From IMG/VR virus record IMGVR_UViG_3300006919_000478, positions 1 to 23,188 of that record: a DNA stretch of 23,188 nt; one strand, given 5' to 3'. A model generated the notes under the pieces. That model made no database searches. It saw only the letters and a program-made list of their open reading frames with translations, and had not been told where the DNA came from. Source of the stretch: a virus. Below are positions 4,001-23,188 of this stretch, in pieces (position 1 is the first letter of the stretch; the number at the start of each line of letters is the position of its first letter). The position numbers and the translations under genes were made by a program.

Positions 4001-7000
4001 TCGTTGATGATGCAGAGTAGGTAGATGGAATTGAAATATCTCTGTTGTATGGATTACTATCATATACATCCGTTGGACTATTGAATCGTCCATACTTGTG
4101 GTTGGTTGTGGCAACTCTAAAGTCAATTGTAGGAATTGTAGAACCATTGCTGATCTGAGAACCACCATCATCCATTCTACCTCTTACTGTCTCACCAACA
4201 ACAAATGTTCCATGAAGCATTTCAATCTCAATGAGTTTCGGTGTTACATAGTTGTTTACATCAACGTCATCAAAGAATGAATAGACTCTTGTAAATGGTT
4301 TGAATGAAGTTCCTGTGACACTAATATTACGAGATCTCATAAAGTTGATGATCTCTCTTCTTACAACTCTACTACCAAGAGATTCTGTATCAATTCTTTC
4401 GTTTACAAAGAACTGTCTTCCAGTTCTATTCTGAGAAAGATTGGTAGAGGTTGTTGCCCTAATATTGTTATTAGTAACACTAGTAGTAGTAGTTTCAAAG
4501 GTTCTAGTAGTCCTTTCAATTCCTACAGAGATTCTCTCACGTTCACTATCGGTTTGTCTTGTTGTAGAAGTTGTACGAGATGATTGATTGTTCGACAATG
4601 AAGTGTTTACATCTACACCAACAGTCTGCCAAGAATTCCAAACAACAGGAGAAACACCAGCTCTTGAGCCGTCTCTTCTTGTTCTAATATCTGCACCTAG
4701 GGCCTCAGCAACACCTCTAAATGACCCCTCCATCATTACATTATTAACTTCAAGTTCGTTTACATCAATCCAAACGTCAACCTCAGGTGTGAGTTCAATA
4801 TTGCCTTGCCAGAACTGAACCAGAAATGGAGTTACATTTTCAGCTCTTGTTGCAAATGGTTGTTGTAACCAAGTTTCATCAGTATAATCGAGAGTCAAAA
4901 TTCGACTACTCTTCTTGACATTTGCACCAACAACCTCTGCAAAGTTTGAATCTTGATTTGCATCAGATATAGTGCCAATACCATTTACTGCAGTTGTTCC
5001 CAATTGAAGATTAAGAGCAGTAGTATAATGAGATGGTCTAAGAATTCCTTTCTCAGTGTCAATACTGTTTCTGATACCAATACTTGTATCTTGAGGTTCA
5101 AGAGTTGTGAAGTTGTCTACAAAAACACCAGACTTAAATCTATTATTACCATTAGCATCTTCAACGAACAGATTAAGTGTATTCGTTTCAAGTTGATTAA
5201 GTGAAGTATAATACTCAAGATTTTTAATTCTTTGTTCAAGTTTAGAGATATCACTCATTTGATATCTCTTATGTTCAATGAACTTAATTTCTGCGTCTGC
5301 AGTGTTATAAAGATATGCTGGGAGGAATACACTAGCAATATTCATCACACCACTCAGACTATCTGGAAGCTTAGGTTCATCGTCTGGTGCACCTTGAAGA
5401 ACACTAAGAACACCTTCTTTATCAATGAAGATTCTATCTGCTCTTGGTAAGTAATAATCATATGTCACCGTTAGTGACTCATCAGAAGCAATGATATGGC
5501 TTGATGATTGAAGATTGCCATTCTGACCATCAACAAAATTTCTACCATCAAATTCAAATGGTGACCTTGCATCCTCAGCAACTACATAATCGGTGAGTCG
5601 TGGTCTTACATCAATAATATCAGATACTCTTACGTCTTGTACTTCTCCAATTTCTGCTCCGTAGTTATAACCAACATAAGAGTTAATAGTTGTGATATCA
5701 CCCTCGTCTGCATCATCATAAGAGGATGATGCAAAATATACACGAAGTTTTCTGGTAGGAGTCTGTGCCTCTCCTCTTCTCTCAATTCTAGAATAATCGT
5801 AGAATGTTCCTCTTTGACCATTAAAGAACTTAAAGTCATTAGTAACTTCTTTAGAACCCAGTTTTACGTTTGACGAAACACCATTGACGGTTGAAGACTC
5901 AAAACTAATTACTTCTGCATTTTGGAATGTTGTATCATTCAAATACGTAAAGTAAATTGCAGTATCATCAAGTTTCTGGAGATAAACTCCTTTTGCACCA
6001 CTTGTTTGACCTGTGAGAATTTCTCCCACAATCAGGTCATTTGTGGTAGCAGTAATACCATCAAGTTGTGATAATGTCATATTAGGACATACTGGATCAT
6101 CGTTGTCATCTGACTCGAAGATACCATAGATCTTATAGACATCAACTGTATTCAGTGAGATAACCTCATCCTGAACTCTTGTACCATATGGATAGTTACC
6201 ATATGTTAATCCGTCATCTAATGTAGTAGAACCAATGCCAGATGCGGCTTTACTTGACTTATTGATGATCAAATCTTGAGATACGTTCTTCAGTTTTGTT
6301 TTTGAAGTAACGTCAGTCTTTCTAATTGTTGTAATAAGTTTGGTATTAGTGTCATTAGCACCAAGACCATTGATTTGAAGTGACGTTGAACCATTCGTAA
6401 ATTCAAATCTATCTTCTGTCAGAACCTCAGTAGAACCATCAGATCTGATAAGAGTATATCTTTCCTCGTCAAATGGTAAGAATACCTCCTTTTCTTCGGT
6501 ATTGATGACAGGAGTAGAATTATTAGTGATGGAAGTTGTATATTGTCTTCTAATTACTAACTCAGAACCAATAAGATTTACTGATGAAATATTGGTCTTA
6601 GGAAATGCACTGTAAAGAGTTGTATTATTTGCCAAATTACCTGAACCAGGACCACCAACCCCTTTGGTGGAGAGAAGTTCAAAGTTCTGAACGGTCTCTA
6701 CACTGGTTGGAAGAGCGCCATTACAAATACCAGAAACAGTAGGAACAGCTTGAACAGTAATGTTAGTCTGACCTACACCTGTAACTCTTGCAAAACTTGC
6801 TACATCTAAAGTTGGTCTAGAATATCTTACAATGTTACCGACAGTAACGATACCAATGAACGAGAAGCCAGGATCTGCAGGAATTGAAATCAGTGATGAA
6901 CTACCAAATTCGGCAGAAATATTTGCTGAACCAAAATTACGAACTAATGACTGAACTGTGTCCCCAGTAAAGGTTGCTGCAGTTCCAACCACACCATGTA

Positions 7001-8648
7001 CTGATTTAACATCAGACAATGAGTAGTTCCTACTAATTGTAACAAATCTAGCATCATCTAATACTCCATTGAAAATAAGTCTCTCAGCCTTTTGAAATTC
7101 ACCTTCAACATTGTAAACTGTAAGGTCAGTATCTGCAGTAACATTACTCCTTAGGAAACCCTTTGCACCACTTGACTCACCTTTGATGAGGGTTGACGTG
7201 GAGAGTGTAATTGGCTCATTTAGTGTGATCTCAGCATATGTCTGAACATCAAACAATGATAAATCCCATGTATTCAGGTTGGGGAATGCAGTGTCATATG
7301 AACCACCTTCTAAAACAAAGTCATATATTCTTGCAATTCCAATTTCTTTACCTGAAGAGGCCAATGAATTGACACCAACTCTCTGGTCTCTCAAACTTAG
7401 AGTTAAAGAAGTATTGATACCAATTGTGGCAGATCCACTAACTCTGTTTAAGTTCAGAGTTGGTCCAAAACCGAAATTAACAGCCTGATCTTCAATGGTT
7501 CTTGTAGTTCTTGGCTTTTCGAAGTCAATTAAAGTAGGAGCAATGGTTTCTACCTCATAACCTTTTACATATGCCTTACCAGGGGAGATTTTGTAGATAC
7601 CAAGGTCGTCACTAGGAATGTTACCAGATTGGGTGACTTGAGTGGAATTATAGATACCTCTATTTCCTTCGTTGTTGTTAAGACTGTTCTTAACCGAAGT
7701 TACAAACTCTTTTACGTAATAATCACCAGATTCATCAAAAGTTCTACGTGCAAGTTCATCACCTAAGAAGTTATAATCGGTATTTTTGTTAATAAGACGT
7801 AAAACACCGTCTTTTACTTCTGATAATTGAACAAAATTCGACTCATCAAAACTACCAAGTGGTTTTTTCGACAAAGTTGTGGAAATTTTCAGTCTATCTG
7901 CACCAGGAGCCGTAAAATTGTTGAATCCTTGGGCATTATCATTGAGTGAAGAGTCAACATCGGAGGAAACAATCTCTTCAACAACGTCTAAACCGACTCT
8001 ATAAGAAGGAGTATTGGAATATTGATCAAGAATCAGTGTTTGGGCATTAACATTGACAAAATACCCTCTCAGGAAGTAAACACCCTGAGATAAATTGAAT
8101 GATGAGCCAATAATTGCTGCATTTTGTGGAATTGTAGTTGCAAAACCCTCACCTTCAGAAATGAAAGTAGATGCATAAGTAATATTTGTGCTTGTGGTGA
8201 GAATTTCACTATCTAAAAATGTGTTTACTTCTTCATCAGAAGTGGAAGAATTCTCATAATTCAGATAAAGAGTATAAACTCCCCTCTCAGACTCACTATC
8301 TGTAATATATGTTACAACTTTTGCAGTGACTCCCGAAGTTGCACCAGTAATTGTTGTTCCAATTAGTTGGTCAAGATAAATTCCTACAGGAATACCCAGA
8401 AATTCAGACTCAATTTGAATTCCATAGAAATTCTGAATATAGGTCAAGTCCCCAGGAATGACTTTAGCACCTTCTTTGAAGAAATGGTTACCCATTTCCT
8501 CAACTTGGTTTTGCAGAATAGACTGTAGACCAGTCAGTTCTCTTGCTTGAACAGGAAAACCAGGTTTAAATAGAACCTTATAATAATTCGACTGGGGATC
8601 AAAGTCGTCAAAATATGGAGCGACATTGAGATTAGTTTCCTGTGGCAT
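1047..8648 (-). CDS. giant DUF4815-type baseplate/tail structural protein, 2533 residues
   Basis: This is a virion protein of the DUF4815 type found in marine T4-like phages. The diagnostic N-terminus (residues about 9-65) has YFDDFDP, then FKPGFPVQARELT, LQSILQNQVE and KEGAKVIPG. Further on are: three or four TSGA-type units (near residues 100, 490, 880 and 1580); a GDITTINSYVGYNYG segment (about 980); a short heptad stretch KLEQRIKNLEYYTSL (about 1130-1155); an Arg/Thr/Ser-rich low-complexity stretch (about 1353-1403); KPFTRVYSFFDDVDV (about 1450); a DPLAQTFLVDD block (about 1709-1818) seen widely in phage virion proteins; GxGY beads (about 1940-2000); an RG..T..H..G unit (about 2161-2183); and a C-terminal domain ending FRIKIIGTSTDQ...RNLRVLSFA. 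It has only three cysteines that I can see. The gene starts 5 bases after the gp8 stop with no well-spaced ribosome binding site (AAGAGA nearly touches the ATG), so coupling is likely. It occupies the T4 gene 9-12 position, but I see no similarity to gp9-12. The exact role is inferred. Confidence 0.85.
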   Translation of the reverse strand: MPQETNLNVAPYFDDFDPQSNYYKVLFKPGFPVQARELTGLQSILQNQVEEMGNHFFKEGAKVIPGDLTYIQNFYGIQIESEFLGIPVGIYLDQLIGTTITGATSGVTAKVVTYITDSESERGVYTLYLNYENSSTSDEEVNTFLDSEILTTSTNITYASTFISEGEGFATTIPQNAAIIGSSFNLSQGVYFLRGYFVNVNAQTLILDQYSNTPSYRVGLDVVEEIVSSDVDSSLNDNAQGFNNFTAPGADRLKISTTLSKKPLGSFDESNFVQLSEVKDGVLRLINKNTDYNFLGDELARRTFDESGDYYVKEFVTSVKNSLNNNEGNRGIYNSTQVTQSGNIPSDDLGIYKISPGKAYVKGYEVETIAPTLIDFEKPRTTRTIEDQAVNFGFGPTLNLNRVSGSATIGINTSLTLSLRDQRVGVNSLASSGKEIGIARIYDFVLEGGSYDTAFPNLNTWDLSLFDVQTYAEITLNEPITLSTSTLIKGESSGAKGFLRSNVTADTDLTVYNVEGEFQKAERLIFNGVLDDARFVTISRNYSLSDVKSVHGVVGTAATFTGDTVQSLVRNFGSANISAEFGSSSLISIPADPGFSFIGIVTVGNIVRYSRPTLDVASFARVTGVGQTNITVQAVPTVSGICNGALPTSVETVQNFELLSTKGVGGPGSGNLANNTTLYSAFPKTNISSVNLIGSELVIRRQYTTSITNNSTPVINTEEKEVFLPFDEERYTLIRSDGSTEVLTEDRFEFTNGSTSLQINGLGANDTNTKLITTIRKTDVTSKTKLKNVSQDLIINKSSKAASGIGSTTLDDGLTYGNYPYGTRVQDEVISLNTVDVYKIYGIFESDDNDDPVCPNMTLSQLDGITATTNDLIVGEILTGQTSGAKGVYLQKLDDTAIYFTYLNDTTFQNAEVISFESSTVNGVSSNVKLGSKEVTNDFKFFNGQRGTFYDYSRIERRGEAQTPTRKLRVYFASSSYDDADEGDITTINSYVGYNYGAEIGEVQDVRVSDIIDVRPRLTDYVVAEDARSPFEFDGRNFVDGQNGNLQSSSHIIASDESLTVTYDYYLPRADRIFIDKEGVLSVLQGAPDDEPKLPDSLSGVMNIASVFLPAYLYNTADAEIKFIEHKRYQMSDISKLEQRIKNLEYYTSLNQLETNTLNLFVEDANGNNRFKSGVFVDNFTTLEPQDTSIGIRNSIDTEKGILRPSHYTTALNLQLGTTAVNGIGTISDANQDSNFAEVVGANVKKSSRILTLDYTDETWLQQPFATRAENVTPFLVQFWQGNIELTPEVDVWIDVNELEVNNVMMEGSFRGVAEALGADIRTRRDGSRAGVSPVVWNSWQTVGVDVNTSLSNNQSSRTTSTTRQTDSERERISVGIERTTRTFETTTTSVTNNNIRATTSTNLSQNRTGRQFFVNERIDTESLGSRVVRREIINFMRSRNISVTGTSFKPFTRVYSFFDDVDVNNYVTPKLIEIEMLHGTFVVGETVRGRMDDGGSQISNGSTIPTIDFRVATTNHKYGRFNSPTDVYDSNPYNRDISIPSTYSASSTILNIDTFSLQSQDFPQFSGWISRSMILTGTSSGAQARVSNVRLITDRVGTLQASYFVPSPNNPANPTFETGRSSFRLTSSKTNSSVEGLTSTAGESIFYSQGDVDTTQETTLSVRNATVRRADVSQRRTIGDASTSNQITITQTPEEDITEFQTTSDRRVDPLAQTFLVDDPTGVFITKVDLFFVTKDENVPVLFEIRETTLGTPNDKVLPFSFKSVDPKDVKLSQDGTVATTITLDAPVYLNPEKEYALVLLSHSTEYRVWISRLGEADVTTLGQEAGQILVTEQPLLGSLFKSQNASVWTPSQYEDLKFNLYVANFKAQGSVSFFNPELPSDLSQIDPNGLTVNSREIRVGLGTTVNDSGLVVGRTVKQLSIGAQGTLVAFAGSITSDFTITNAGVGYTPSSGGFTYTGVALTSITGRGINATADITIQGGVAVGATVRAGGSGYVVGDVLTPVQVGSVNLGSGIQLSVNQLLGNNTLVLDNVQGNFTTNSAYPLYYENSVGFTTELNGVGGNVIPVSPITVTEQGNYIRVFQRNHGLYSNVNRVTISDVRSDVTPNTLSQQYGFDTTTFITIEGLATNFETFENLGVGGTNPGYVKIGDEIISYTGVNGRTLTGVTRGIDNTTISTHSSGELVYKYELNGVSLRRINTSHLLANVDSTELDEAPIGLDYYYVKVQMNTNGTNRAPSNAEGFPPLYFNENKLAGGPLVKGTYNLPYNLITPKITTITPQGTNLIAQARTISASSVSGNQPSYLDKGYKQVTIFDKNYFDGQRMIASAQNEGLQLNGDTFAGNKSFEMQFTLLTGNSRISPVIDLDNASVVYTMNRVNRPVTDYVADFRVNGTEDDPNRFTYVSKNVTLENPATSLQVLLDGYVSNFCDLRVFYAVDQDVPLEDTIFVPFPGYKNIDINGSILDISSNNGTPDKKVPKVDAYVPEPTQDQYKEYKFTIDEVKPFKSFRIKIIGTSTDQSNVPMIRNLRVLSFA

Positions 8649-10247: not shown

Positions 10248-10568
10248 TTAGACAGTGAACAAGTTAGGATATACAACCATAGTTCCACCCATACCAGAGT
10301 GATTAGTGCATTGATAATATAATTGGTTGGGTGCATTAAATGGAACTTCAAATCTTATCGTACCGTTTGTCGATCCATTACCAACTACACCGTTATTGTA
10401 TGCAGCACCTCCATTAGAAACTCTGCTTTCGAATGGATGACCCCCTCCACTATTATTAACAAACTCATATACACTGCCTCTAGCAACATAAACAACAGGA
10501 TCACTAGTAGTTTGAGTAAACCCTATACCAGTGAAAGTGTAGTGACTTGTACCACCAGCACCTAAAGT
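10248..10568 (-). other. cupredoxin-like domain with putative type 1 copper ligands
   Basis: This is the C-terminal domain of the fibre-like protein (residues about 449-555). It has a beta-rich pattern with a His in HPFE at 10437-10439, then 43 residues later C-x2-H-x2-M in CTNHSGM. Plastocyanins and pseudoazurins place a His at the start of the ligand set, then C-x2-H-x4-M; pseudoazurin reads CTPHYAMGM. The Met here is at the first of those two positions, so the axial ligand may be altered or supplied by Met542 or Met546. The domain may only be a structural beta-sandwich. The fold call comes from motifs alone. Confidence 0.6.
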
Positions 10569-11915
10569 CCACTTACCTGATGTAACATAAGATGAATCAC
10601 CATAATATGTTGCACCTGTAACTACACCTAAGGTAGAAACACCAGTAACAACCAAAGTATTTGTGCTTACATTTTCTGTAGAACCACTTCCAGCAGAAGA
10701 TGAAATTGTGGTGATTCCTGCATTCGTTGTTACTGTAATATTACTACCAGCCGAGATCAATGTGGTGATACCAGTCAGACCAGAACCGTCAGCACCAGTT
10801 AATGTAAGGTTTGCACCACTGCCATAATATGTTGCACCAGTAATGACACCAAGTGTCGATACCCCAGAAACAACTAAAGTATCAGCACTTATGTTAGAAG
10901 TATTTGCAGCTCCAATATATGAGATGGTTGATATACCAGAATTTGTTGTAACACTGATGTTAGCTCCTGCCTGGATAAGAGTTGTAATACCTGTAACACC
11001 AGAAGCGTCAGCACCAGTGAGTGTTAGGTTTGATCCATCGCCATAGTATGTAGCGCCAGTTACAATACCAAGAGTAGAAATACCAGATACTTTGAAGTAA
11101 CCTAATACATTAGCACCACCATGTTTTGTTTCAAATCTCTTATTGTTATTGTAATACAGTTCAACACCATAATTTCCGTCAACGTTGGTTGACATTACCT
11201 GTGTTGTTCCAGCACCACTAGTGAAGTTTTGGGTATCTGCCTTAATATTTAAATCACCTACATTTACTCTAATGACATTTCCATCAGAGTCATTATGGAA
11301 GAAAGTAAATTCTGATTGTTCTCCTAAGATAAATTGTTTGTCATCAGTCATCAATAGAGATGAACCAAGACTTACATTTCCAGTAAGTGTAGAAACACCA
11401 GATACATTCAGTGTTCCTGCAGAATGACCTGCACCAACAAATAACTGTCCAATTGTACCAACACCAGTAATATTGATGTTTCTACCAGTTACTTCATCAT
11501 ATACAATATCATCCAATACATAGAGATCACCACCTACATACAAGTCACCACCAGTTGTAGTGATACCACCCTGACTTGCCAGAGTTGAAATGCCAGAGGA
11601 TAAGAATGATGTAACTGTGGTAACACCCAAGGTTGTGATACCTGCAGCTTTTAGATTTCTAGAGATGTCAACATCAGTTGTTGCAATAGAAACAGGTGTT
11701 GGTGCAGAAATTTCAACATAACCAGTTGTTGTATTCACTGCAACATTTGTTCCTGCAGAGATGACAGTAACAACACCTACAGCCAAAGTAGAACCATCAC
11801 CAATGAGGTTATAAACCTCTTGGAAATTACTATTAATTTTTACACCACCATCAACTAGGGTATCACCTGTTCCATCATTAGGCGTAGTGCCAGTGCTAAT
11901 ACCTTGGTATGCCAT
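10248..11915 (-). CDS. fibre-like structural protein with C-terminal cupredoxin-like domain
   Basis: This is a 555-residue protein, probably a tail fibre, tip or baseplate appendage. It begins MAYQGISTGTTPNDGTGDTL, followed by KINSNFQEVYNLIGDG, a start motif shared by many phage fibre and structural proteins. The centre is Gly/Ser/Thr/Val-rich and low in charge. It holds short GISTLG-type repeats, then two full and one partial tandem unit of 73-74 residues carrying STLG.VTGATYYG (residues about 275-445). The last 100 residues change character and look like a cupredoxin fold. His493 lies in GGGHPFE, and Cys536, His539 and Met542 lie in YYQCTNHSGMGGTM, the spacing of type 1 copper ligands. It lies directly upstream of gp8 and downstream of a giant virion protein. 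AAGGA at 11931-11927 ends 11 bases before the ATG, somewhat long for a ribosome binding site. There is no signal peptide. Fibre assignment is moderate; copper binding is untested. Confidence 0.75.
   Translation of the reverse strand: MAYQGISTGTTPNDGTGDTLVDGGVKINSNFQEVYNLIGDGSTLAVGVVTVISAGTNVAVNTTTGYVEISAPTPVSIATTDVDISRNLKAAGITTLGVTTVTSFLSSGISTLASQGGITTTGGDLYVGGDLYVLDDIVYDEVTGRNINITGVGTIGQLFVGAGHSAGTLNVSGVSTLTGNVSLGSSLLMTDDKQFILGEQSEFTFFHNDSDGNVIRVNVGDLNIKADTQNFTSGAGTTQVMSTNVDGNYGVELYYNNNKRFETKHGGANVLGYFKVSGISTLGIVTGATYYGDGSNLTLTGADASGVTGITTLIQAGANISVTTNSGISTISYIGAANTSNISADTLVVSGVSTLGVITGATYYGSGANLTLTGADGSGLTGITTLISAGSNITVTTNAGITTISSSAGSGSTENVSTNTLVVTGVSTLGVVTGATYYGDSSYVTSGKWTLGAGGTSHYTFTGIGFTQTTSDPVVYVARGSVYEFVNNSGGGHPFESRVSNGGAAYNNGVVGNGSTNGTIRFEVPFNAPNQLYYQCTNHSGMGGTMVVYPNLFTV
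10592..11085 (-). repeat. tandem repeats of about 220 bp in the fibre-like gene
   Basis: Two full copies and one partial copy of a unit encoding STLG(V/I)(V/I)TGATYYG then NLTLTGAD.SG(V/L)TGITTLI.AG. On the plus strand the anchor CATA(A/G)TATGT starts at 10601, 10823 and 11042, giving periods of 222 and 219 bases (74 and 73 residues). The third copy in reading order breaks off after the YYGDSS segment and runs into the cupredoxin-like domain. The copies are diverged at DNA level, so this is protein-level repetition, not a recent duplication. Confidence 0.85.
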
Positions 11916-11949: not shown

Positions 11950-14900
11950 TTAAGTTTGATAGTTATTAAACTTCAAAGGTCTGAATCTCTGAACCAACGG
12001 TGATGTAGTAATACCTGTGTATGAATTAGGTGTAAATTCAAGTGCATCTACGGTTGCTCTATTCAAGAATTGAATCTTACCCCATGTGTATTCACCGAGA
12101 TTTCTACCTCGTGTGAATCCAGCTACCGTGGTACCAAATCCAACATTTGCAACCTCAACTCTTCTAATTGCAGTTGTTCCAAGACCAACTGAAGTCAAAT
12201 CAACTGTGGAGTTATAAGCAGCAGATACTTGATAGATATTGTCACTTGTGCTTGTAGACAGACCAAAGTTTGAAAGGTTGACCACGAAGTAGTCACCAGT
12301 ATTGAGTTGACTGATGGTAACTGCGGTACCTACAATAGTAGGATCTCTCATGTAAGAATCCTCTGGGATATACAATTCAAGTGTTCCAAGAGCACCTGTA
12401 GATTGTGCATATCCAACAATCTGCCCAAGATCACCAAAGTAAGAACTGACACCAATCTGTTCTCTTCTTGCATTAGGAACTTCAATCAAGATTGATGGTG
12501 GTTGTGTATAACCAGCACCAGCATTAGTGATTGTAATCGAAGTGACTGCAGTACCAGTAACACTTGCAGTGGCAGTTGCTCTGGTTCCACCTACAATATC
12601 ATCTGGTTCAGAGATTGAAACTGATGGTGTCATACCATCATAACCCTGACCACCTGTGGAAATTGTAAATCCAGTGACCGTACCTGCAACACTGACGGTT
12701 ACAGTTGCAATTGCAGATGCAATTGGTGATTGATCAATGATAACAATTCTATCTTGATAATCCAATAGTGAAGTCTCATTTGTAGAATTGAAGAATGGTC
12801 TTACAGTGTCTGTATATGCAACAGCACTTGAGGTTCCAACATAAGATGTCAGATATGCTGCAGGATAGATTGATGGTTCATACTCAACTCTGTCCTTAGT
12901 TACAAAGTCACCATTGATAGTGATATCGTCAGTTTGCTTACACCATGTAAGTGGTCTTACAAGTGCTTGGTTTGTAGTAATACCAGGACCGTCGTAAGCG
13001 AATGTTCTAACAGTGTCAAGAGTTGTAATACCAACTACAGTTCTTGGTTCTTGATATAAACCAAATCCTTGACCCTTGGAAGAATCATTCTTAAGTTGTA
13101 AAGTGTCACCTACCTTGACAGTTTCAAGAATATCAACAAACACAACATCGACATCAGGTGTTCCTTTGTAGAAGATGATTTTTGATGTATCTCCTTCCTT
13201 AGGAGCCTCAGTAAATTCAATGATAGAACCACCATTAAACTTATAGGCCTGATTTGGTACCTGAAGAATGTCATTGATGGTAACAATCAGACACTGTGCA
13301 ATGTCGATATCAGAACCATCTGCAGTTTCAATGGCAAATCCAGCACCAGCGATAGTGAGTGGGAATCTCTTCTCCACACCATCGAACAAGGTATCGAGTT
13401 TATCAAATACATCAAGTTCACCAACTGTAAATCCATTGAATGTATCACGATAGGTATCTGAAACTGTGAGTTGGAATTCGTCATATGTGTAACTTGTATC
13501 AGTCTGAATACCAGTTGTACCACCAATAGAGAGTCTTAATACCTCACCATCACCATAACCAAATCCACCACTCACAATATTAAAATTAATAACACTCGAA
13601 CCCTGACCAACTGTGATATCTACACGAGCACCTGTACCAACTCCACTTTGACCGTCTGCATAGACCAGAGGGATGTTTGAATAAGGAAGAGGTGCATCAA
13701 TTATGATGAGAGGAGGGTTATTCTGATCAAGATTTGCTCCAAAGTAACTGGTTGTAATAGCAACAACTTGTCCATTCTGAATGGTTGCTGTACCGATGTT
13801 CACAACTGTTGTAATACCCGTTGAAGAAACGGCATAACCAACATTAACGGTCTGAATACCAACTCTATATCCAGATCCAGGATTGCCAATTTCAACAGAT
13901 GTAATTGTACCACCGCCAGATACGAAACATGATGCACCAGCAGATACCAATGGCTGATATCCAAGACCTGGAGTAGATGCCACAGAGATAATTGTTCCAC
14001 CTCTTGGAATCGTTGCCATGTTAGGATCAGATTCTGAAGATACACTATCACCAAGATAGGTGATACTTGTAATACCCGCAGTTTCTAGGAGTGTAAAGTC
14101 ACCAGTGGTGTTCTGTGCACCTTGTGGTTCTTGTAAAATGTTAGAGTTAAGAACAATTGCCTGGTTAGTTGCAAAACCAGTTACATTGTTACCATTTTGT
14201 ACAAGTGAGAAGAACTTACTTTGACCATTGAACTGACTTTGAATGTTATCAAAGGTGTAATTGGTACTGTAAGTATCAGCAGAATCATCAGTGATACCAC
14301 TTCTCATAAATGTTCTACCTTGGAAAGTAGAATAAGTTGTGATACCAGACCAGTCAATATTATCAGGACCTTGTGTAGTAGTACTGAGTGGTGTTGCACC
14401 AAATGGAGCTTCAACAAAGTGAAGTGTGTTATCAACAATGTTGTAATTACCACCGAGAAGTTCCACAGATGTTCCGATGTTGTGTGTGGCAACACCAGTA
14501 CCCATTTGACCTCTCAGAACTCTGAAATTGTTGGTTGCTCCAACACCAATATCCTGGAGTAACATAATTTCATTATCAATCTTAATGATATCATTTGCCT
14601 TGAATGATTGAATACCAACAACATCAAAGTCAACATCAAATATTACATTTTGATCCAGTCTTGTAGATACGTTGACTTCAGTTACAGGAGCCTGAATCAT
14701 GTTGTCAATAGCAACAAGAGCTCTTGCATTCTGGTTAGTTGCAGTCAACTTATGGAATGTACCAACACCAACAGAAGTCAGATCAAATACAATTGGTGAT
14801 CCAGCAAGTGCATCAGTTGCACTCTTAGCAAATCCAACAGACTTATTACTGTATTTGACAATGTAGAGTTCAGAAGGTAACTTATCTGTTGACACACCCG

Positions 14901-17900
14901 AAACAGTTGTTGTTGCAATACCAATTGCATTTGCTGTAGATAAATCCGAGTTCTCATAACTATAGCTTACCTTCTCACCAGTGACAAAGAAGTGATCTGG
15001 AATTGTTACCTGATTTGTTGACAGATTTACAATTGAAGAATCGTTTCCAAGGAATGCTCTCTGGAAGATTGGGAGAGTATTGTGTTTGAGATTGAATGCT
15101 CTCTTCTTGTCAAACTCAGTGCCAGTATATGTACCGTAATCAGAGAACAAAATGTTATTTTGTAGGGCACTGATTGATGCAATACCAACAATATTATTAT
15201 AGTTCTTCAGACCAATACCAAAGGTTCTGACATCTACATCAATACTTGCATTAGGTGTAAATACCAGACTTACAGAGGTGCCTGATGTAACAGCACCAAC
15301 TGTTCCTAAACCAGAGTTAGTACCAATACGTCCATACTTAACAATGTTTTGGTTATTTGAGTCAAGAACATGACACTCAAACATCTCATATTCATTGTTG
15401 GTAGTGTCATGGACAGTTACCATGAAGTATTCACCAGCAAATGGATCTTCATATGCTGCAATCTCATTTGCAACTGGAGAACCAGATGCAGAGATTGACT
15501 TGTAGTATGAAGAAAGGTTTGTAACACTCATCGGAGTTGTATTAACTCCTGTTGCTGTTGCATTAGTCTCTACAGAGATAATATTGGCAGTAACAGCAGT
15601 TCCTACTGTTGGTACAATATTAACGTCAATATTGGATCCACTAATATTTGCTGTATATGTACCAAACCCAGATGAAATACCTTCAGTAGAATCAACATCT
15701 CCATAATGAAGAAGTTGTACATTTGTACCATCATGTAATACATTCAGTTCTGTGTAGAAGTAGTTGTCTTCAGCATCTTCCATTTGAACATGAAGTTTTG
15801 CCGATCTACTTGTGGTTGGAATCTGCACCAAAGTGGTGGTTGTCGAAACTGGTACCGATACTGATGACGATGCAATTGAAACAACATCACCGACTTGAGT
15901 TGACCCAACACTAGTCAAACTTTCAACACCACTAAATGTGAAATATGAGATATCGTAGTTATTATATTCAAACAGGTTGGGGAAGAATGTAAGACCCCAC
16001 TCACTGGTACCAGCACCGATGTAATCAAACGAACCCAGTGGTTTACCCGTGTCGATAGTGCCGTATTGGTTCACATAACCTGTAGTACCATCCTGAAGAA
16101 CAGTAACTACACCGAACTGCTTTCTACTTCTCAGTTCACTATCTTGAATTAAAGTAAAGAACTTGTTCCATGCATATTTGTTATCAAAGAAATCAACGAT
16201 AGAATACTTTGTTTCTCTTGGGTTACTATTAAACTCACCACTAAAGTCATCAATCTTAAGAACTCTGTTACCTCTTGACTCAAAGTAATCTACAAGAATC
16301 TTATTCTCAAATACAATCTCATTAGAAATAATTCTACCACCATTAATATCAAGAGTTACCTCAGTAGCACCATCAAAGTCAGGGAAACAATTAAGCATTC
16401 CCTCCCCAATCAGATCAACAACGGTTTCAATCTGGAAGTCAACTGCTGAAGCAATACCAGCAGCATTATTGTCAATTACAAGATCTGCAAACTTCTCAAA
16501 ACCAGCTGTGTGGTTCAGTGAACTGACTGCATCATCCCATGTCTCATATGCAACCCTTGACTTGAGTGAATATGAGAAGTTCTGATAATATTCGTTGTTT
16601 GGAATGACTTGAAGATTATCATTCAAGAATCCAGAATTGGTCTGCCATCCGTCTATGAATGTTGCACCGACACCAAGTCTGATTGTTGAATCAAAATCAA
16701 TATTACTGACGATGTTTGCCTTGTTACCAGATGATTGGGACTCTATAATTGTACCAACTTCAAAATCATCCTCAGAAGAAACAAACAGATAACCACTTGT
16801 GGCATCAAATCTCTCAACCGTACCAACATAGTCACCATTAGTAACTTTTTCCCCCTCGAAGAAGTTTGTTGTGGTAAGTTTTGGATCAAATATTGGGAAG
16901 AACGTCTCAGGGGTTACAGAACCAGAGATAGAACTTGTTACTTGACCAGGGAACTCACCTTGTGCAAGATGATCGGTTAGATCGTATTCAATGTAAGCAT
17001 TTGCACCACCAAGTTGACTATCAAGTGCGGTTACCTCAAACAATGAATAGTTGTAATCTTCAGAATTGTAACCTCTACCAGTGGTATTGAAACCGATTGC
17101 AACGTTTTCAACAATTACCTTTTCACCAACCTTAAATGGCCATTCTTTTTCTTCACTAAACTGTTTAGAGAAGGTAAGTCTGACAATTTTGTTAGTCGAG
17201 TTATAAGATACGGAACTAATACTGAAACCATTTGTGTTTTGAGTGGGAATAAATGATGGTGGAACATTATTCAGTGATTTAGTATTTTCAATAATATTGA
17301 CTTCATTGTCATCGAGTTCGTAATCAAGTTTGACATCAGTGATAACTTGATTTGTGAATCCATCAATAACAATAAGATCAGGTGCCTGACTGTAATTGAC
17401 ACCACCAGAGGAAATACCAATGGATTCAAAAGAACCAAGTGGGTCTATTCTTAATACCTGTGGAAGATTACCTACTACGTTTAGAGTTTTATCAGATGGA
17501 TAACCAAAACCAATGTAGTTGATTTTAGTTCCCAGAATTGTACCGATAGTGGTCGAATATGGTTGAATTAGTGCACCTGTACCATTCTTACTCGTAACTG
17601 AAGAGAATCCTGGGAGAGACTTATACCCTACACCTTTATTGAGTGCATTGATCTTGTTGATTGGTCCATTTGCAGTCAATGATGAAGTATCATACTTCAT
17701 AGTTGCATTGGTGGTACCATATGAGACTACAGTGTCGTAGTCAAAAGGAATATTATATTCAAAAGTATCTGATGTAACACCAACTACATTATAAATTCCA
17801 TCAAATTTGTTTTTAGTAAGATTGATACTATTGTTATTGATAACAGTATCATCTTTAAACAATCTCAACTTGACTGGAGGAATAATATCCAAATTATCAG

Positions 17901-20900
17901 GACTGAATCCGTAGTAGAGATTATTTGGAATGTTATCACTCATAAACAGAGTGAGATTTGCAGTAGTATCTACACCAACCACACCAGACTTTGTGACCTC
18001 AAAGTTTCTATCAGTTCGTGTTGTCCAGAACTCATTAACTTCTTGGGAGTCACTATAGATGAACATGTCAAATGCAGAATAAGTAATACCCTTATCAACA
18101 AATGAAAGTGATGAATCAGATAAATCAAACTTGATGTATTGATTCTTTTGTCCTTTTACTTCTGGATTGATTTTGGAAAGTGTTCCAGTAGTGGCAGAAC
18201 CAACATTTACAAAATTAGGATTCTCACTCGAAAGTTCTGACAGATATTCAACCAATTTAATCACATTATTCTTATAAGAATAAACATAATACATTCCAGA
18301 GGCAGTCAAATTTTCTGATGGATCACCAGAAGTATAGATGACTTTATCACCAGTAAAATACTTATTTTGAGGAACAATAAATGTATTATTGCTTGTATTA
18401 ATACCAGTTGGTTCAATAGTGTCAGGATCAAAAACAATTCTTCTATTAAAATCATCATACTTGACTTTAATATTGGTTGTGGTTGTTGGATTGACATCAA
18501 CAGTAACGATGTCACCTCTCCTCATATCATGAGTTTGTGCGGTAGATACAGTGACAACGTTTTTTGAGACTCTACCTTTGATTACAGATGCAATATTTGT
18601 ATTGAAACTATGATAACTTCCAAGACCTACAGTGGATTCGAAGTATAATAATCCACCCTTCTCAGAGTTAATACCAACATATGTGCCAACAGAATTTACA
18701 CCAACTCTTTGAGTTGCAATACCAATAATATCTTTGGATAATGGAACCGCAAAGATATTTCTAGTTTCATCAAGATTAAATATAGGCGTACTTGTTATAC
18801 CACTCCAACATGCAATAGATGTTCCACCATTGGTGTAATAGATCATCGGAGTGTTCAATGACAACTTATGATCTGGGAGATAGATCTGTTGTTGATCAAC
18901 TCTGACCTGTGTTAAACCAACACCTGGATTTGAGAATGTAATTGTAGTTGCAGTACCTACAGTTGATGTACCTACACCAACTGCCTCGTTTGGAGTAAAG
19001 TATAACTGTTTATTAATTGTAAGATTTCTCTGAGTATTGATACCTGTTGAAAGGAATCTGAGTTTTCTTGGATCATCTCTAACAACAGTACCTGCAGAGT
19101 GGGCAACTGCAAGTGTTCCATCGATACCTCTAAGAACTCTGACTCTACTAGATTTTTCATCAATATTGAGAACTTTTAATTTTTCTCTTTCAATTCTGAG
19201 AATATCATTTGGTCTAATTGAATTCTCACCTAAAGGACCATTCATATAAACGTAGGTCACAATACCAGTGACAGTATCAGTTCCTATTCCTAGTGATACA
19301 TACCATCTTTCACTTGATACACCGACCGAATATGACCCAGTGAATCCTTTGTAGTATGAAGATAAACCATCAATGAAAATTGTATCTAATGGTAAGAAGT
19401 TGTGTGGGGCCGAAGTAATACCAACAAACCCATTAGCACTTCCTGTACTTGTAAACTCCACATTTTCATAAGATGTAGTGGCAAGACTTACACTGTTTAC
19501 ATTCTTACCCTTAAGTTGAGATACTCTAAAGTTTGCATTTCTACCACCAGTATTAGTTGAATTGAGTTCAACCTTATCACCAATCTTGTATCCATCACCT
19601 GGATCCAAAATAGTCATACCGTCAACACTACCTGATGATGTGTTAGTAATGTCTAAAGACTGATTTCTAAGTTTGTCTGAATTGTAAATGTAATCATATT
19701 GACTATTTCCGCCATTTGTGAAATAGTTCTTAGTATTTCTAAACCAATTATCCTCTACAATATCGTAATCAGTTTGATTGGATGATGACCTGAAATTGAA
19801 TGGAATTGGTAATGAATTATAATCGTCTCCAATTACATATGGGAACAATGGTCTTCTGTAGTTATTAAATGGACCAGAGGAATCGACAGTATCGGAGATA
19901 GTACAGAAGTATGCATATACACCGTTTGGATAATCTGGTGTTACACAGAAGCGACCATTGTGTTCATCAAGATCGCCGTCACCAGCATAGATATAGTCAT
20001 CTACAAAGAATCCGTTAGGGAATGCATTGTATGAAGGTCTATTGACAGGTGTATTCTTGAGTTTGTAACTTGTAACCATTCTACGAATGTTACCAGTTCC
20101 ATCAATATTATCGAAACCGTATGGACCATAGATTGGATTGCCATCGTAGGCCCAACCTACGATTGGTGAGTGGTACAAACTATCAATCTCTTCACCACCA
20201 GTGCTTAATGTTAAGTCAAAAATACCATATTGAATGTTATCTTCCCCGAAACCATTTAATGAGTTTAGTGACTCTCTTAATGGTCTAGGTGCATAAACTG
20301 CTGCATACTGAAGTGACTTGTTTGAAATGTTCTCCTCAATAATGCAGTCATCATCTTTAAAGTTGGAGAAGTTTCTTTCAAATAGATTGATATTCCATCC
20401 TCTAATATTTGCCTGTGTTCTTGCTCCAGATCCAGCAGATATTACATCAATTGTAGTTTTACCTGAGATATAACCCACACCACCTTTTTGAACATAGACA
20501 CTTTCTATCTCACCATTATTGATGATTGGTACTAAGATTGCAAAATTACCAGTCTCACTTACGATGTTGAGATCAGGTGGTGCATTGTAACCTTCACCAC
20601 CCGAATTTACAATGACCTCAACAATCTGCCCATTGTTGATGATTGGAGTAAGTTTTGCATTTGAGCCAGACTCAAAAGTGATTTCAGGTTGTCTTCTAAA
20701 ATCAACGATAGTTGATGCACCATAACCAACCCCGCCATTGGTTAAGTCAATACTTAAGATCTCTCCTCTAAAGACAGGTTGTAGTTTTGCTTCATAAAGA
20801 AGGATATTACCAATGAATGGATCATCACTAATCAACCAGTTTGCATCGGCACTTACCAACACATAGTATGGATTTGTGATCTCTGCTTCAGTATCAGTCC

Positions 20901-23188
20901 ATGCAAGTACTGATACAGGAGTGATAATATTCTCTTCAATAGGAGATTCAATAACATAGAGTTCTTGGAAATCTTCAACAAAGGTTTTATCAAATGACGC
21001 TGCAGCACCCTCTACTTCAACAGTGATTGGTGGATAGTTGAATGAACCACTACCCTGTTTTGTGAAGTTTATGATAATTCCCCTATCATAATAATAATCT
21101 CTTTCGACAGTTCCAGTACCAACTTCTGTTAATTGAAATGCATCGTCATTAATCTTCTTAACAAAATAATCTTTATCTTCACTCAGACCCTCAACTCTTG
21201 GCGTCCCTCTTGTATATCTTACAACTTCTTTTGATTTATAACCATGATTTAAAATTTCAACTCTGTCTGATACGGTATTGATACCAGCTGTTGGAATAGT
21301 CCTCTTTTTGTTTTCGTAACCTGTGCCAGGATTAGTAATTACAACACTAGATACAACCTGTTTAAGTTCTGTTGCCACAAGGTATTGAACACCATCACCA
21401 TAACCTGTAAATTCAACAGTGTTAATACCAGCGAATACGTCACCTCTTGTCGTGTGAAGTTTAATAGACTTCTGACCAGTCACAAATACAAAATACTCAC
21501 CATCAGTATTCAGTCCAACAACACTAGACGTATTTCTTGGTTCATAAATTACACTTTCACCATCTAAGAATTTGTGATCCTCTTCAAATATAATCTCATT
21601 AGTTGTTAGATTTACGTTACTTGGGAAATTAGCAATGAAAGAATTTTCATGTTTAATTGAAATCATTCTAGGTTCTGCCTCTGCACCAGAACCATTACCA
21701 CCCTTGATTGTAATTGTTGGTGGTGCATAATAACCCATACCAGGGTCAGTAACATCTAGTCTTACAAGTTGACCTATAACATTAGAAACACCTGTTGCTC
21801 CAGTTCCCACCTCATCGACAATCTTTACTACTGGTGGGTTGATAATATCATATCCAACTCCACCACTTGTCATAGTGAAGTCAAGGATATCACCATAGTA
21901 AACACTATTAGATGACTTATAGTTTAACAACTCAAGACCATTAACAAAAATGCCCGTGTATCCTGAAGTTGTTTTCTCTTTTTTCTTTCTATTAGTAGGA
22001 CTCAGAATCTTTCTGTAGATACCCTGTGGTTGAATCGTTTTACCATAAAAATCAAGGTAACTTAAAGAAGCATTTACTACTGACCCGTTAAATGTAATAT
22101 ATGATTCTCTTGTAAGGTCTGCCTTACTTCTTGCAAGTTTGATTTCACTCTCATTAACTCTGTATACAAAGTAGGAACCATCGGTAACACCCTCGAAACC
22201 ATTACCACCAGATTGGAAATATACTGAGTTACCTGTGTAGAAACCATGATCAGGTAATGATGTTGGGTTAGTTGGTAATGGTAAAATATCAGTACTCGTC
22301 AATGATGCTGAGAAAGTTACACTCTTATCATAAACATTTGTCTCAATATCATAATATTTTGGTATTGAGTTAGATGATAAGAGAACATCACCATTAAACT
22401 TTGCATACGTATTCTGTACGTTGGCAACAAAGTTCTTGATATATGAATGACTTGTAGACGAACCCTTGAGTAGTTGATTCTCAAGATAGAATGTGCCTAA
22501 AAGATTGATCTGTTGTCCGAAAGTTACGTTGATCTCCTTCTCTGATATAATTCTAGTGACTGTTCCGAGAACTGATACAGTACCATCTTCGTTTTCATAT
22601 CTTAATTTATATCCTTCTTGGAAGAAATGATCATCATAAACTTTAAAGTTATATACGAATGCATTAGCATCAATTACAGAACTTTCAGCAATTTTAAATT
22701 TTGTTTGGACATTGAGAACATAATTATTTGCTTTCTTACCAGGCGCCTCATATCCAAATGATTTGATCTCAATAGTGTCATTCTTTTTGAAATAATATGT
22801 TGGATCGTTTTGTACAAAATCTTTCAGAGTAGATGTAAATCTAACCTTGATTTCTTGTGAGGTATCAATACCAACATAGGCATATGAGAAAGAATCTAAC
22901 TTAACGTCAGACTTCTTGTTCAATGAATTGGTCAGACCAGATACGTTAAAGAACTGGTTTGTGGTCTTACCACTATATGCAATACCAATCTCATTGCCAT
23001 CAACATCGTCAACGACCAACTTACCATATTCAGGAAAGTCAACGGTTGAATCAACATCGAGAACTGTTGAACCAAGACTTACAGAGGTAAGGAGTTTTGT
23101 AAGGGGGTTTGGTTCAAACTCACCAAAAATAGAACCTGTTACGTCAGTATCTCTCTGGAATCCAGAATCAATACTGATCTGATAGAAT
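11950..23188 (-). CDS. giant modular virion structural protein, at least 3745 residues (5' end outside window)
   Basis: This is a very large phage virion protein, probably tail or baseplate. The frame is open from the window edge (first full codon 23187-23185) to TAA at 11952-11950, so the start lies upstream. The TTG at 23019 that opens a nominal reading frame is an internal Leu codon: SVSLGSTVLDVDSTVDFPEY continues in frame before it. Visible modules include at least 13 GxGY beads spread end to end (for example near 21850, 21740, 20740, 20590, 20470, 19600, 17620, 17390, 13960, 13870, 13560, 12640 and 12510). There are five or six 'DH.F.TGE.V.Y ... YFV ... IKLA' units, a YHYH-like domain (19840-20190), two RG..GT..H..G units (19085-19150 and 14455-14531), a tandem pair of about 80-residue modules (15195-15810), and a C-terminal LGEYTWGKI motif. 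It lies just upstream of gp8's neighbourhood, where T4 has gene 7 (1032 residues), but I see no clear gp7 similarity. Structural role is likely; host-binding or wedge function is inference. Confidence 0.82.
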   Translation of the reverse strand, partial: FYQISIDSGFQRDTDVTGSIFGEFEPNPLTKLLTSVSLGSTVLDVDSTVDFPEYGKLVVDDVDGNEIGIAYSGKTTNQFFNVSGLTNSLNKKSDVKLDSFSYAYVGIDTSQEIKVRFTSTLKDFVQNDPTYYFKKNDTIEIKSFGYEAPGKKANNYVLNVQTKFKIAESSVIDANAFVYNFKVYDDHFFQEGYKLRYENEDGTVSVLGTVTRIISEKEINVTFGQQINLLGTFYLENQLLKGSSTSHSYIKNFVANVQNTYAKFNGDVLLSSNSIPKYYDIETNVYDKSVTFSASLTSTDILPLPTNPTSLPDHGFYTGNSVYFQSGGNGFEGVTDGSYFVYRVNESEIKLARSKADLTRESYITFNGSVVNASLSYLDFYGKTIQPQGIYRKILSPTNRKKKEKTTSGYTGIFVNGLELLNYKSSNSVYYGDILDFTMTSGGVGYDIINPPVVKIVDEVGTGATGVSNVIGQLVRLDVTDPGMGYYAPPTITIKGGNGSGAEAEPRMISIKHENSFIANFPSNVNLTTNEIIFEEDHKFLDGESVIYEPRNTSSVVGLNTDGEYFVFVTGQKSIKLHTTRGDVFAGINTVEFTGYGDGVQYLVATELKQVVSSVVITNPGTGYENKKRTIPTAGINTVSDRVEILNHGYKSKEVVRYTRGTPRVEGLSEDKDYFVKKINDDAFQLTEVGTGTVERDYYYDRGIIINFTKQGSGSFNYPPITVEVEGAAASFDKTFVEDFQELYVIESPIEENIITPVSVLAWTDTEAEITNPYYVLVSADANWLISDDPFIGNILLYEAKLQPVFRGEILSIDLTNGGVGYGASTIVDFRRQPEITFESGSNAKLTPIINNGQIVEVIVNSGGEGYNAPPDLNIVSETGNFAILVPIINNGEIESVYVQKGGVGYISGKTTIDVISAGSGARTQANIRGWNINLFERNFSNFKDDDCIIEENISNKSLQYAAVYAPRPLRESLNSLNGFGEDNIQYGIFDLTLSTGGEEIDSLYHSPIVGWAYDGNPIYGPYGFDNIDGTGNIRRMVTSYKLKNTPVNRPSYNAFPNGFFVDDYIYAGDGDLDEHNGRFCVTPDYPNGVYAYFCTISDTVDSSGPFNNYRRPLFPYVIGDDYNSLPIPFNFRSSSNQTDYDIVEDNWFRNTKNYFTNGGNSQYDYIYNSDKLRNQSLDITNTSSGSVDGMTILDPGDGYKIGDKVELNSTNTGGRNANFRVSQLKGKNVNSVSLATTSYENVEFTSTGSANGFVGITSAPHNFLPLDTIFIDGLSSYYKGFTGSYSVGVSSERWYVSLGIGTDTVTGIVTYVYMNGPLGENSIRPNDILRIEREKLKVLNIDEKSSRVRVLRGIDGTLAVAHSAGTVVRDDPRKLRFLSTGINTQRNLTINKQLYFTPNEAVGVGTSTVGTATTITFSNPGVGLTQVRVDQQQIYLPDHKLSLNTPMIYYTNGGTSIACWSGITSTPIFNLDETRNIFAVPLSKDIIGIATQRVGVNSVGTYVGINSEKGGLLYFESTVGLGSYHSFNTNIASVIKGRVSKNVVTVSTAQTHDMRRGDIVTVDVNPTTTTNIKVKYDDFNRRIVFDPDTIEPTGINTSNNTFIVPQNKYFTGDKVIYTSGDPSENLTASGMYYVYSYKNNVIKLVEYLSELSSENPNFVNVGSATTGTLSKINPEVKGQKNQYIKFDLSDSSLSFVDKGITYSAFDMFIYSDSQEVNEFWTTRTDRNFEVTKSGVVGVDTTANLTLFMSDNIPNNLYYGFSPDNLDIIPPVKLRLFKDDTVINNNSINLTKNKFDGIYNVVGVTSDTFEYNIPFDYDTVVSYGTTNATMKYDTSSLTANGPINKINALNKGVGYKSLPGFSSVTSKNGTGALIQPYSTTIGTILGTKINYIGFGYPSDKTLNVVGNLPQVLRIDPLGSFESIGISSGGVNYSQAPDLIVIDGFTNQVITDVKLDYELDDNEVNIIENTKSLNNVPPSFIPTQNTNGFSISSVSYNSTNKIVRLTFSKQFSEEKEWPFKVGEKVIVENVAIGFNTTGRGYNSEDYNYSLFEVTALDSQLGGANAYIEYDLTDHLAQGEFPGQVTSSISGSVTPETFFPIFDPKLTTTNFFEGEKVTNGDYVGTVERFDATSGYLFVSSEDDFEVGTIIESQSSGNKANIVSNIDFDSTIRLGVGATFIDGWQTNSGFLNDNLQVIPNNEYYQNFSYSLKSRVAYETWDDAVSSLNHTAGFEKFADLVIDNNAAGIASAVDFQIETVVDLIGEGMLNCFPDFDGATEVTLDINGGRIISNEIVFENKILVDYFESRGNRVLKIDDFSGEFNSNPRETKYSIVDFFDNKYAWNKFFTLIQDSELRSRKQFGVVTVLQDGTTGYVNQYGTIDTGKPLGSFDYIGAGTSEWGLTFFPNLFEYNNYDISYFTFSGVESLTSVGSTQVGDVVSIASSSVSVPVSTTTTLVQIPTTSRSAKLHVQMEDAEDNYFYTELNVLHDGTNVQLLHYGDVDSTEGISSGFGTYTANISGSNIDVNIVPTVGTAVTANIISVETNATATGVNTTPMSVTNLSSYYKSISASGSPVANEIAAYEDPFAGEYFMVTVHDTTNNEYEMFECHVLDSNNQNIVKYGRIGTNSGLGTVGAVTSGTSVSLVFTPNASIDVDVRTFGIGLKNYNNIVGIASISALQNNILFSDYGTYTGTEFDKKRAFNLKHNTLPIFQRAFLGNDSSIVNLSTNQVTIPDHFFVTGEKVSYSYENSDLSTANAIGIATTTVSGVSTDKLPSELYIVKYSNKSVGFAKSATDALAGSPIVFDLTSVGVGTFHKLTATNQNARALVAIDNMIQAPVTEVNVSTRLDQNVIFDVDFDVVGIQSFKANDIIKIDNEIMLLQDIGVGATNNFRVLRGQMGTGVATHNIGTSVELLGGNYNIVDNTLHFVEAPFGATPLSTTTQGPDNIDWSGITTYSTFQGRTFMRSGITDDSADTYSTNYTFDNIQSQFNGQSKFFSLVQNGNNVTGFATNQAIVLNSNILQEPQGAQNTTGDFTLLETAGITSITYLGDSVSSESDPNMATIPRGGTIISVASTPGLGYQPLVSAGASCFVSGGGTITSVEIGNPGSGYRVGIQTVNVGYAVSSTGITTVVNIGTATIQNGQVVAITTSYFGANLDQNNPPLIIIDAPLPYSNIPLVYADGQSGVGTGARVDITVGQGSSVINFNIVSGGFGYGDGEVLRLSIGGTTGIQTDTSYTYDEFQLTVSDTYRDTFNGFTVGELDVFDKLDTLFDGVEKRFPLTIAGAGFAIETADGSDIDIAQCLIVTINDILQVPNQAYKFNGGSIIEFTEAPKEGDTSKIIFYKGTPDVDVVFVDILETVKVGDTLQLKNDSSKGQGFGLYQEPRTVVGITTLDTVRTFAYDGPGITTNQALVRPLTWCKQTDDITINGDFVTKDRVEYEPSIYPAAYLTSYVGTSSAVAYTDTVRPFFNSTNETSLLDYQDRIVIIDQSPIASAIATVTVSVAGTVTGFTISTGGQGYDGMTPSVSISEPDDIVGGTRATATASVTGTAVTSITITNAGAGYTQPPSILIEVPNARREQIGVSSYFGDLGQIVGYAQSTGALGTLELYIPEDSYMRDPTIVGTAVTISQLNTGDYFVVNLSNFGLSTSTSDNIYQVSAAYNSTVDLTSVGLGTTAIRRVEVANVGFGTTVAGFTRGRNLGEYTWGKIQFLNRATVDALEFTPNSYTGITTSPLVQRFRPLKFNNYQT
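15195..15810 (-). repeat. tandem pair of about 80-residue modules in the giant protein
   Basis: Two diverged copies of one module. The copy at about 15555-15810 holds AKLHVQMEDAEDNYFYTELN, VLHDGTNVQLLHYGDV, FGTYTANISG and IDVNIVPT. The copy at about 15195-15445 holds EYFMVTVHDTTNNEYEMFEC, HVLDSNNQNIVKYGRI, LGTVGAVTSG and VSLVFTPN. Strand order and spacing match. The same kind of module recurs in phage fibre proteins, from memory. Function is unknown. Confidence 0.65.
19840..20190 (-). other. YHYH-like domain inside the giant protein
   Basis: The segment (visible residues about 1000-1115) reads HSPIVGWAYDGNPIYGPYGF, later DGDLDEHNGRF then TPDYPNGVYAYFCT. This matches the layout of YHYH domain proteins as I remember them: HSPIIGYAYDGFPIYGP, then LDECNGR, then PEGTYHYH. 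The signature YHYH is replaced by YAYF, and the Cys of DEC is a His here. Two Cys residues (in RFCVTP and YFCTI) flank the end. The YHYH family is poorly characterised; here it is probably a structural or binding module. Confidence 0.7.

Follow-up and report, generated by a model that had tools for sequence, protein, structure and literature searches.

A predicted cupredoxin domain with a putative type 1 copper ligand set at the C-terminus of a cyanophage gp9/gp10-like baseplate wedge protein

A gp9/gp10-like baseplate wedge protein that is widespread in cyanophages was found to end in a predicted cupredoxin domain with the four residues of a putative type 1 copper site. The protein, of 555 residues, is encoded in a window of 23,188 nucleotides, the whole stretch of DNA analysed here, which is a fragment of the baseplate region of a T4-like cyanophage, a virus of marine cyanobacteria, from a virus record. 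It is well supported that this virion protein carries a C-terminal module of the cupredoxin fold with a complete, selected ligand set of the type 1 kind. The reading as a whole, in which the module would bind copper and act at the virion surface, is in our judgement somewhat better than an even proposition, and its parts differ in strength.

The gene order of the window (Table 1) is also found in Synechococcus phage RB11-B, and it is kept in syn9 with one extra gene inserted. The name of the giant ORF at the window edge was transferred from the syntenic gene of RB11-B. This ORF also contains a YHYH domain (PF14240, E 5e-27) at positions 19894-20187 of the window, on the minus strand.

Table 1. 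Features of the window and of the related ligand-less copy. Positions are those of the window unless another sequence is named.
Feature	Position	Strand	Remarks
Giant 'baseplate wedge initiator' ORF	11950..23187	-	Open at the window edge; upstream neighbour of the 555-aa gene
gp9/gp10-like baseplate wedge/tail-fibre connector, 555 aa	10248..11915	-	ATG start; PF07880, phrog_677, phmmer
Repeat-built middle part, residues 79-448	10572..11681	-	Repeats of the type 'VSTLGVVTGATYYG' just ahead of the tip
C-terminal predicted cupredoxin domain, residues 449-555 and stop	10248..10571	-	AlphaFold2, Foldseek, VIA
His493, putative N-terminal copper ligand	10437..10439	-	H-P-F motif; aligned to the amicyanin His; invariant
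Cys536, putative copper thiolate ligand	10308..10310	-	Amicyanin alignment; invariant
His539, putative copper ligand	10299..10301	-	Amicyanin alignment; invariant
Met542, putative axial copper ligand	10290..10292	-	Amicyanin alignment; invariant
gp8 baseplate wedge subunit, 519 aa	8654..10213	-	PF09215; phrog_438, E 1e-154; synteny marker
2533-aa protein with DUF4815	1047-8648	-	
77-aa virion protein, then one further ORF		-	Beyond the 2533-aa protein in minus-strand order
Ligand-less copy, second tail fibre protein	L276 641-2983 (RB11-B 202140-204482)		Clade also in L229-L274

The preliminary description had spoken of a repeat-built, fibre-like protein beside gp8. The repeats and the neighbour were borne out; the protein itself, however, is a gp9/gp10-like baseplate wedge protein. 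Its residues 4-77 belong to the T4 gp9/gp10 N-terminal family PF07880 (43.1 bits against a cut-off of 25, E 6e-11), the N-terminal part matched the PDB chains of T4 gp10 and gp9 in phmmer (E 4e-6), and the protein matched phrog_677, 'baseplate wedge tail fiber protein connector', with an E-value of 1.7e-49. The likeness to the T4 wedge proteins is confined to the N-terminal domain: the alignment covers only the first ~80 residues, and the C-terminal domain found no match in T4. The middle part has much in common with that of RN05-S, a phage without the tip domain. The annotation of S-B43 (L218, 1201-2690) splits the gp9/gp10-like gene into two ORFs that overlap, with an apparent frameshift in the repeat region, which could be real or a sequencing error.

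Structure prediction of residues 449-555, which had been proposed as a check, gave an all-beta model of high confidence (AlphaFold2; pLDDT 96.2, pTM 0.86), made from a shallow alignment of 39 sequences with Neff about 2. The leading rows of the Foldseek search against the PDB were cupredoxin-domain nitrite reductases, plastocyanins, rusticyanin, pseudoazurin, amicyanin and multicopper oxidases (best E 5e-4). In VIA-align the best structural match was the N-terminal cupredoxin domain of the three-domain nitrite reductase of Hyphomicrobium (2dv6, 6tfd; Z 10.4, 22% identity over 94 residues), and rusticyanin followed with Z 8.5-9.4 and 2.0 A over 88 residues. The Hyphomicrobium domain belongs to an enzyme, whereas the baseplate protein has no reductase domains. 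On these models the C-terminal domain is predicted to fold as a cupredoxin. BFVD also contains similar predicted folds from other phages and from 'beta-sandwich proteins' of giant viruses, among them A0A481Z6J5 and A0A481YWX9 of relatives of Pithovirus and Marseillevirus.

At the level of sequence the matches are weaker. The window domain scored 17.8 bits with the Pfam family Copper-bind (PF00127), below the cut-off of 21.2, while 28 of 39 relatives matched this family at E up to 1 (best 4e-5). Sequence-profile matches in the PDB had E-values of 0.03-0.13, and phmmer was likewise borderline. The best profile match, 2vmj, is named a copper nitrite reductase; the matched stretch contains CTPHPFM, the loop of amicyanin, which we suspect to be engineered there. 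Searching the PDB with a single sequence gave no significant match, as would be expected if the residue pattern had arisen by chance in an unrelated beta-sandwich. The fold matches above and the conservation described below contradict this explanation, and we regard its probability as negligible. The domain is not a misread petE gene either, for in many phages it is continuous in frame with a baseplate protein.

The ligand set named in the preliminary description (His493, Cys536, His539 and Met542, codons counted directly on the ORF) falls at the canonical places of a type 1 site. In the predicted secondary structure His493 lies between two strands, Cys536 closes the next-to-last strand, and His539 and Met542 are in the loop preceding the last strand. 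Alignment by hhalign with amicyanin, the sequence of which matches PDB 1aac, placed all four ligands in register (E 4e-4), and in a profile search the His, Cys and His of plastocyanin lined up with those of the domain. The spacing of the Met had been a ground for doubt, as C-x2-H-x2-M differs from the C-x2-H-x4-M of plastocyanin. The difference is real, and it is the spacing of the amicyanin loop (CTPHPFM). The four residues would make up a complete type 1 site with the short loop known from amicyanin. Cys536 is the sole Cys of the 555-residue protein, which rules out an intrachain disulfide.

It is worth noting where the likeness to known carriers ends. Amicyanin has the same fold, the same loop and the first His in register, but it is a free protein with Asn after this His, as in plastocyanin, whereas the virus domain is fused to a baseplate protein and has Pro there. 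Amicyanin is exported and carries electrons for methylamine dehydrogenase; the neighbours of the domain-bearing gene are baseplate genes. Plastocyanin (PetE) is alike in fold and in the kinds of ligand, with the different loop spacing given above, and some cyanophages encode it as a separate, host-derived gene for a photosynthetic electron carrier (PMC3037559).

The four residues, His, Cys, His and Met (HCHM), were then considered across homologues. They were present in 19 of 19 diverse copies from GenBank cyanophages, with identity down to about 30%; these copies were gathered by tblastn without use of the ligand motif. Among the loci gathered at that stage, 130 of 132 distinct copies had HCHM, one had HCHQ and one FAVM, some copies outside the GenBank set having been found through peptides containing C-x2-H, which biases some of the counts. 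A set of 29 divergent copies, with a median pairwise identity of 45%, had only 7 invariant columns out of 98, and four of these seven are the named residues, for which the chance of all four pre-named columns being invariant is about 1e-5; some members of this set were found through a C-x2-H peptide, and the 19 GenBank copies are free of that bias. Of 102 domains, 99 had exactly one Cys. When copies were paired with the window, dN/dS came to about 0.1-0.3 in almost every pair, the synonymous sites being close to saturated. The ligands were also intact in copies with altered loop lengths, C-x2-H-x4-M in L228 and C-x4-H-x2-M in L170, and such variation occurs among real type 1 sites. One divergent copy (L179, 2682-3014) reads C-x2-H-x2-Q, with Gln at the place of the axial ligand, as in the copper protein stellacyanin.

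Free loss of the Cys and His residues, which would have spoken against a metal site, was not seen; one clade has lost His, Cys and His together, in a different protein. A second fibre protein of RB11-B carries a copy of the domain in which Phe, Ala and Val replace the three residues (FAVM). Among 27 scorable distinct relatives of this copy, 26 are without the three ligands and one (L273) has HCHM. The ligand-less copies have Phe at the first position, Ala or Ser at the second and Thr, Val or Ile at the third, and the Met is kept. In a tree built without the ligand columns they cluster and two changes are needed, few forks of this tree being well supported. An 88-residue construct of the clade gave pLDDT 86.5 and a mixture of immunoglobulin-like and cupredoxin matches, none with E under 0.001, but the construct lacks the first strands and is not fairly comparable with the 107-residue domain. 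The models thus confirm a cupredoxin fold for this clade only broadly.

There is another possible interpretation of the conserved residues, in which the domain is a metal-free adhesion or structural domain of the cupredoxin fold and owes its four conserved residues to packing or folding. Copper-free proteins of this fold are known in general. The ligand-less clade retains the family sequence with Phe, Ala and Thr or Val at the ligand positions, which shows that the domain can persist in a virus without metal, and two divergent second copies (L157 and L178) are without Cys. The three residues were lost as a set and not singly, however, as a shared metal site predicts; the ligands outlast loop insertions, and all four are invariant in the 19 copies gathered without the motif. 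We therefore consider a metal-free domain doubtful as an explanation of the window copy. The domain probably binds copper, which it could take up inside the host cell or, once the cell has lysed, from seawater.

The metal in the virion might be a different one, most likely zinc, serving as a structural clamp. Inspection of the sequence showed no evident export signal in the 555-residue protein; folding would therefore take place in the cytoplasm, which holds little free copper, and type 1 sites folded there can acquire Zn(II). The fibre tips of T4 hold iron through HxH motifs, and such iron-binding motifs are described for gp37 of T4 and for fibres of Alteromonas phage R22Y (PMC11705849). In these fibres a metal is held, or proposed to be held, on the tail fibre, as we propose for the baseplate domain, but the iron there is octahedral and bound by paired His residues, whereas the baseplate domain has a putative mononuclear site of two His, Cys and Met. 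A cupredoxin fold with His, Cys, His and Met together is the copper signature, and the Gln at the axial place of the L179 copy also argues against zinc. Occupation by a metal other than copper seems to us quite unlikely.

An orthologue in S-SZBM1 (S-SZBM1_206, 498 aa), 59% identical to the P-TIM40 protein, has the terminal domain with all four ligands, and LC-MS of particles purified on CsCl detected it at 24.9% coverage (PMC9146016). The domain is a C-terminal module that the baseplate wedge protein may have or lack and that can be swapped. RB11-B and RN05-S, both with Synechococcus MW02 as the host on record, share 98.7% identity across 1690 nt leading into the gene, part of it included, and 99.6% across 1637 nt just past it. 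The gene of RB11-B ends in the cupredoxin domain and that of RN05-S in an unrelated short tail. S-B05 carries the RN05-S ending without the domain, and in a further sequence (L048) the RN05-S tail comes after the domain. These endings show that the domain is optional and that it is swapped as one piece. If the host fields of the records are followed, its absence from RN05-S also implies that the domain is dispensable for the infection of MW02.

The same comparison bears on whether the domain could be a fixed socket for the long tail fibre on the baseplate, like gp9 in T4. The N-terminal gp9/gp10 domain and the connector annotation would fit a socket, as would S-SCSM1, where a protein annotated as the proximal subunit of the long tail fibre has the domain close to its N-terminus. 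Since the protein lacks the domain in RN05-S and S-B05, whose neighbouring genes are nearly identical and whose host strain is the same, and since L048 has the domain and the RN05-S tail in succession, such a socket appears improbable. The optional and exchanged position points instead to a role in attachment or at the surface. That the domain is exposed on the virion as an exchangeable module for attachment or surface interaction, with copper stabilising it or shaping its surface, is a proposal for and against which we see about equal weight.

The domain was present in 324 GenBank phage records at E up to 1e-3, nearly all of them of Synechococcus and Prochlorococcus phages. P-SSM2 has four copies, and P-GSP1, a 45-kb cyanophage of the Autographiviridae, also carries the domain. 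Outside these records it was found in a few marine genome bins, which may hold viral contigs, and in one Bacteroidetes bin. A copy with the four ligands is part of a 1056-aa cellular protein with cadherin-like stretches in Prochlorococcus sp. AG-347-K20 (L106, L224).

Electron shuttling by the domain is very unlikely in our estimation; no pointer to an electron-transfer partner was seen in the present data. The wider proposal that the baseplates of marine cyanophages carry redox-active type 1 copper centres and that copper takes part in infection is also unlikely as it stands. In that case copper might serve, for example, in recognition by metal-uptake proteins of the host surface or in redox sensing at the cell surface.

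A literature search, with most subscription papers outside its scope and thus weak as evidence, returned no paper linking cupredoxins with phage tail fibers and none on type 1 copper on a bacteriophage virion, and the combination of cupredoxin and cyanophage yielded only a Borg paper. Both cupredoxins and metal on phage fibres have been described before; a type 1 copper site on a phage baseplate protein did not turn up in the papers searched. The natural pairs found here, RB11-B with the domain and RN05-S without it, and the clades with and without the ligands, allow the question to be put to a direct test. Should copper be bound, a virus appendage would have taken over a fold known above all from electron transfer, and the particles of a group of viruses abundant in the ocean would bear a trace metal, as has been proposed for iron.
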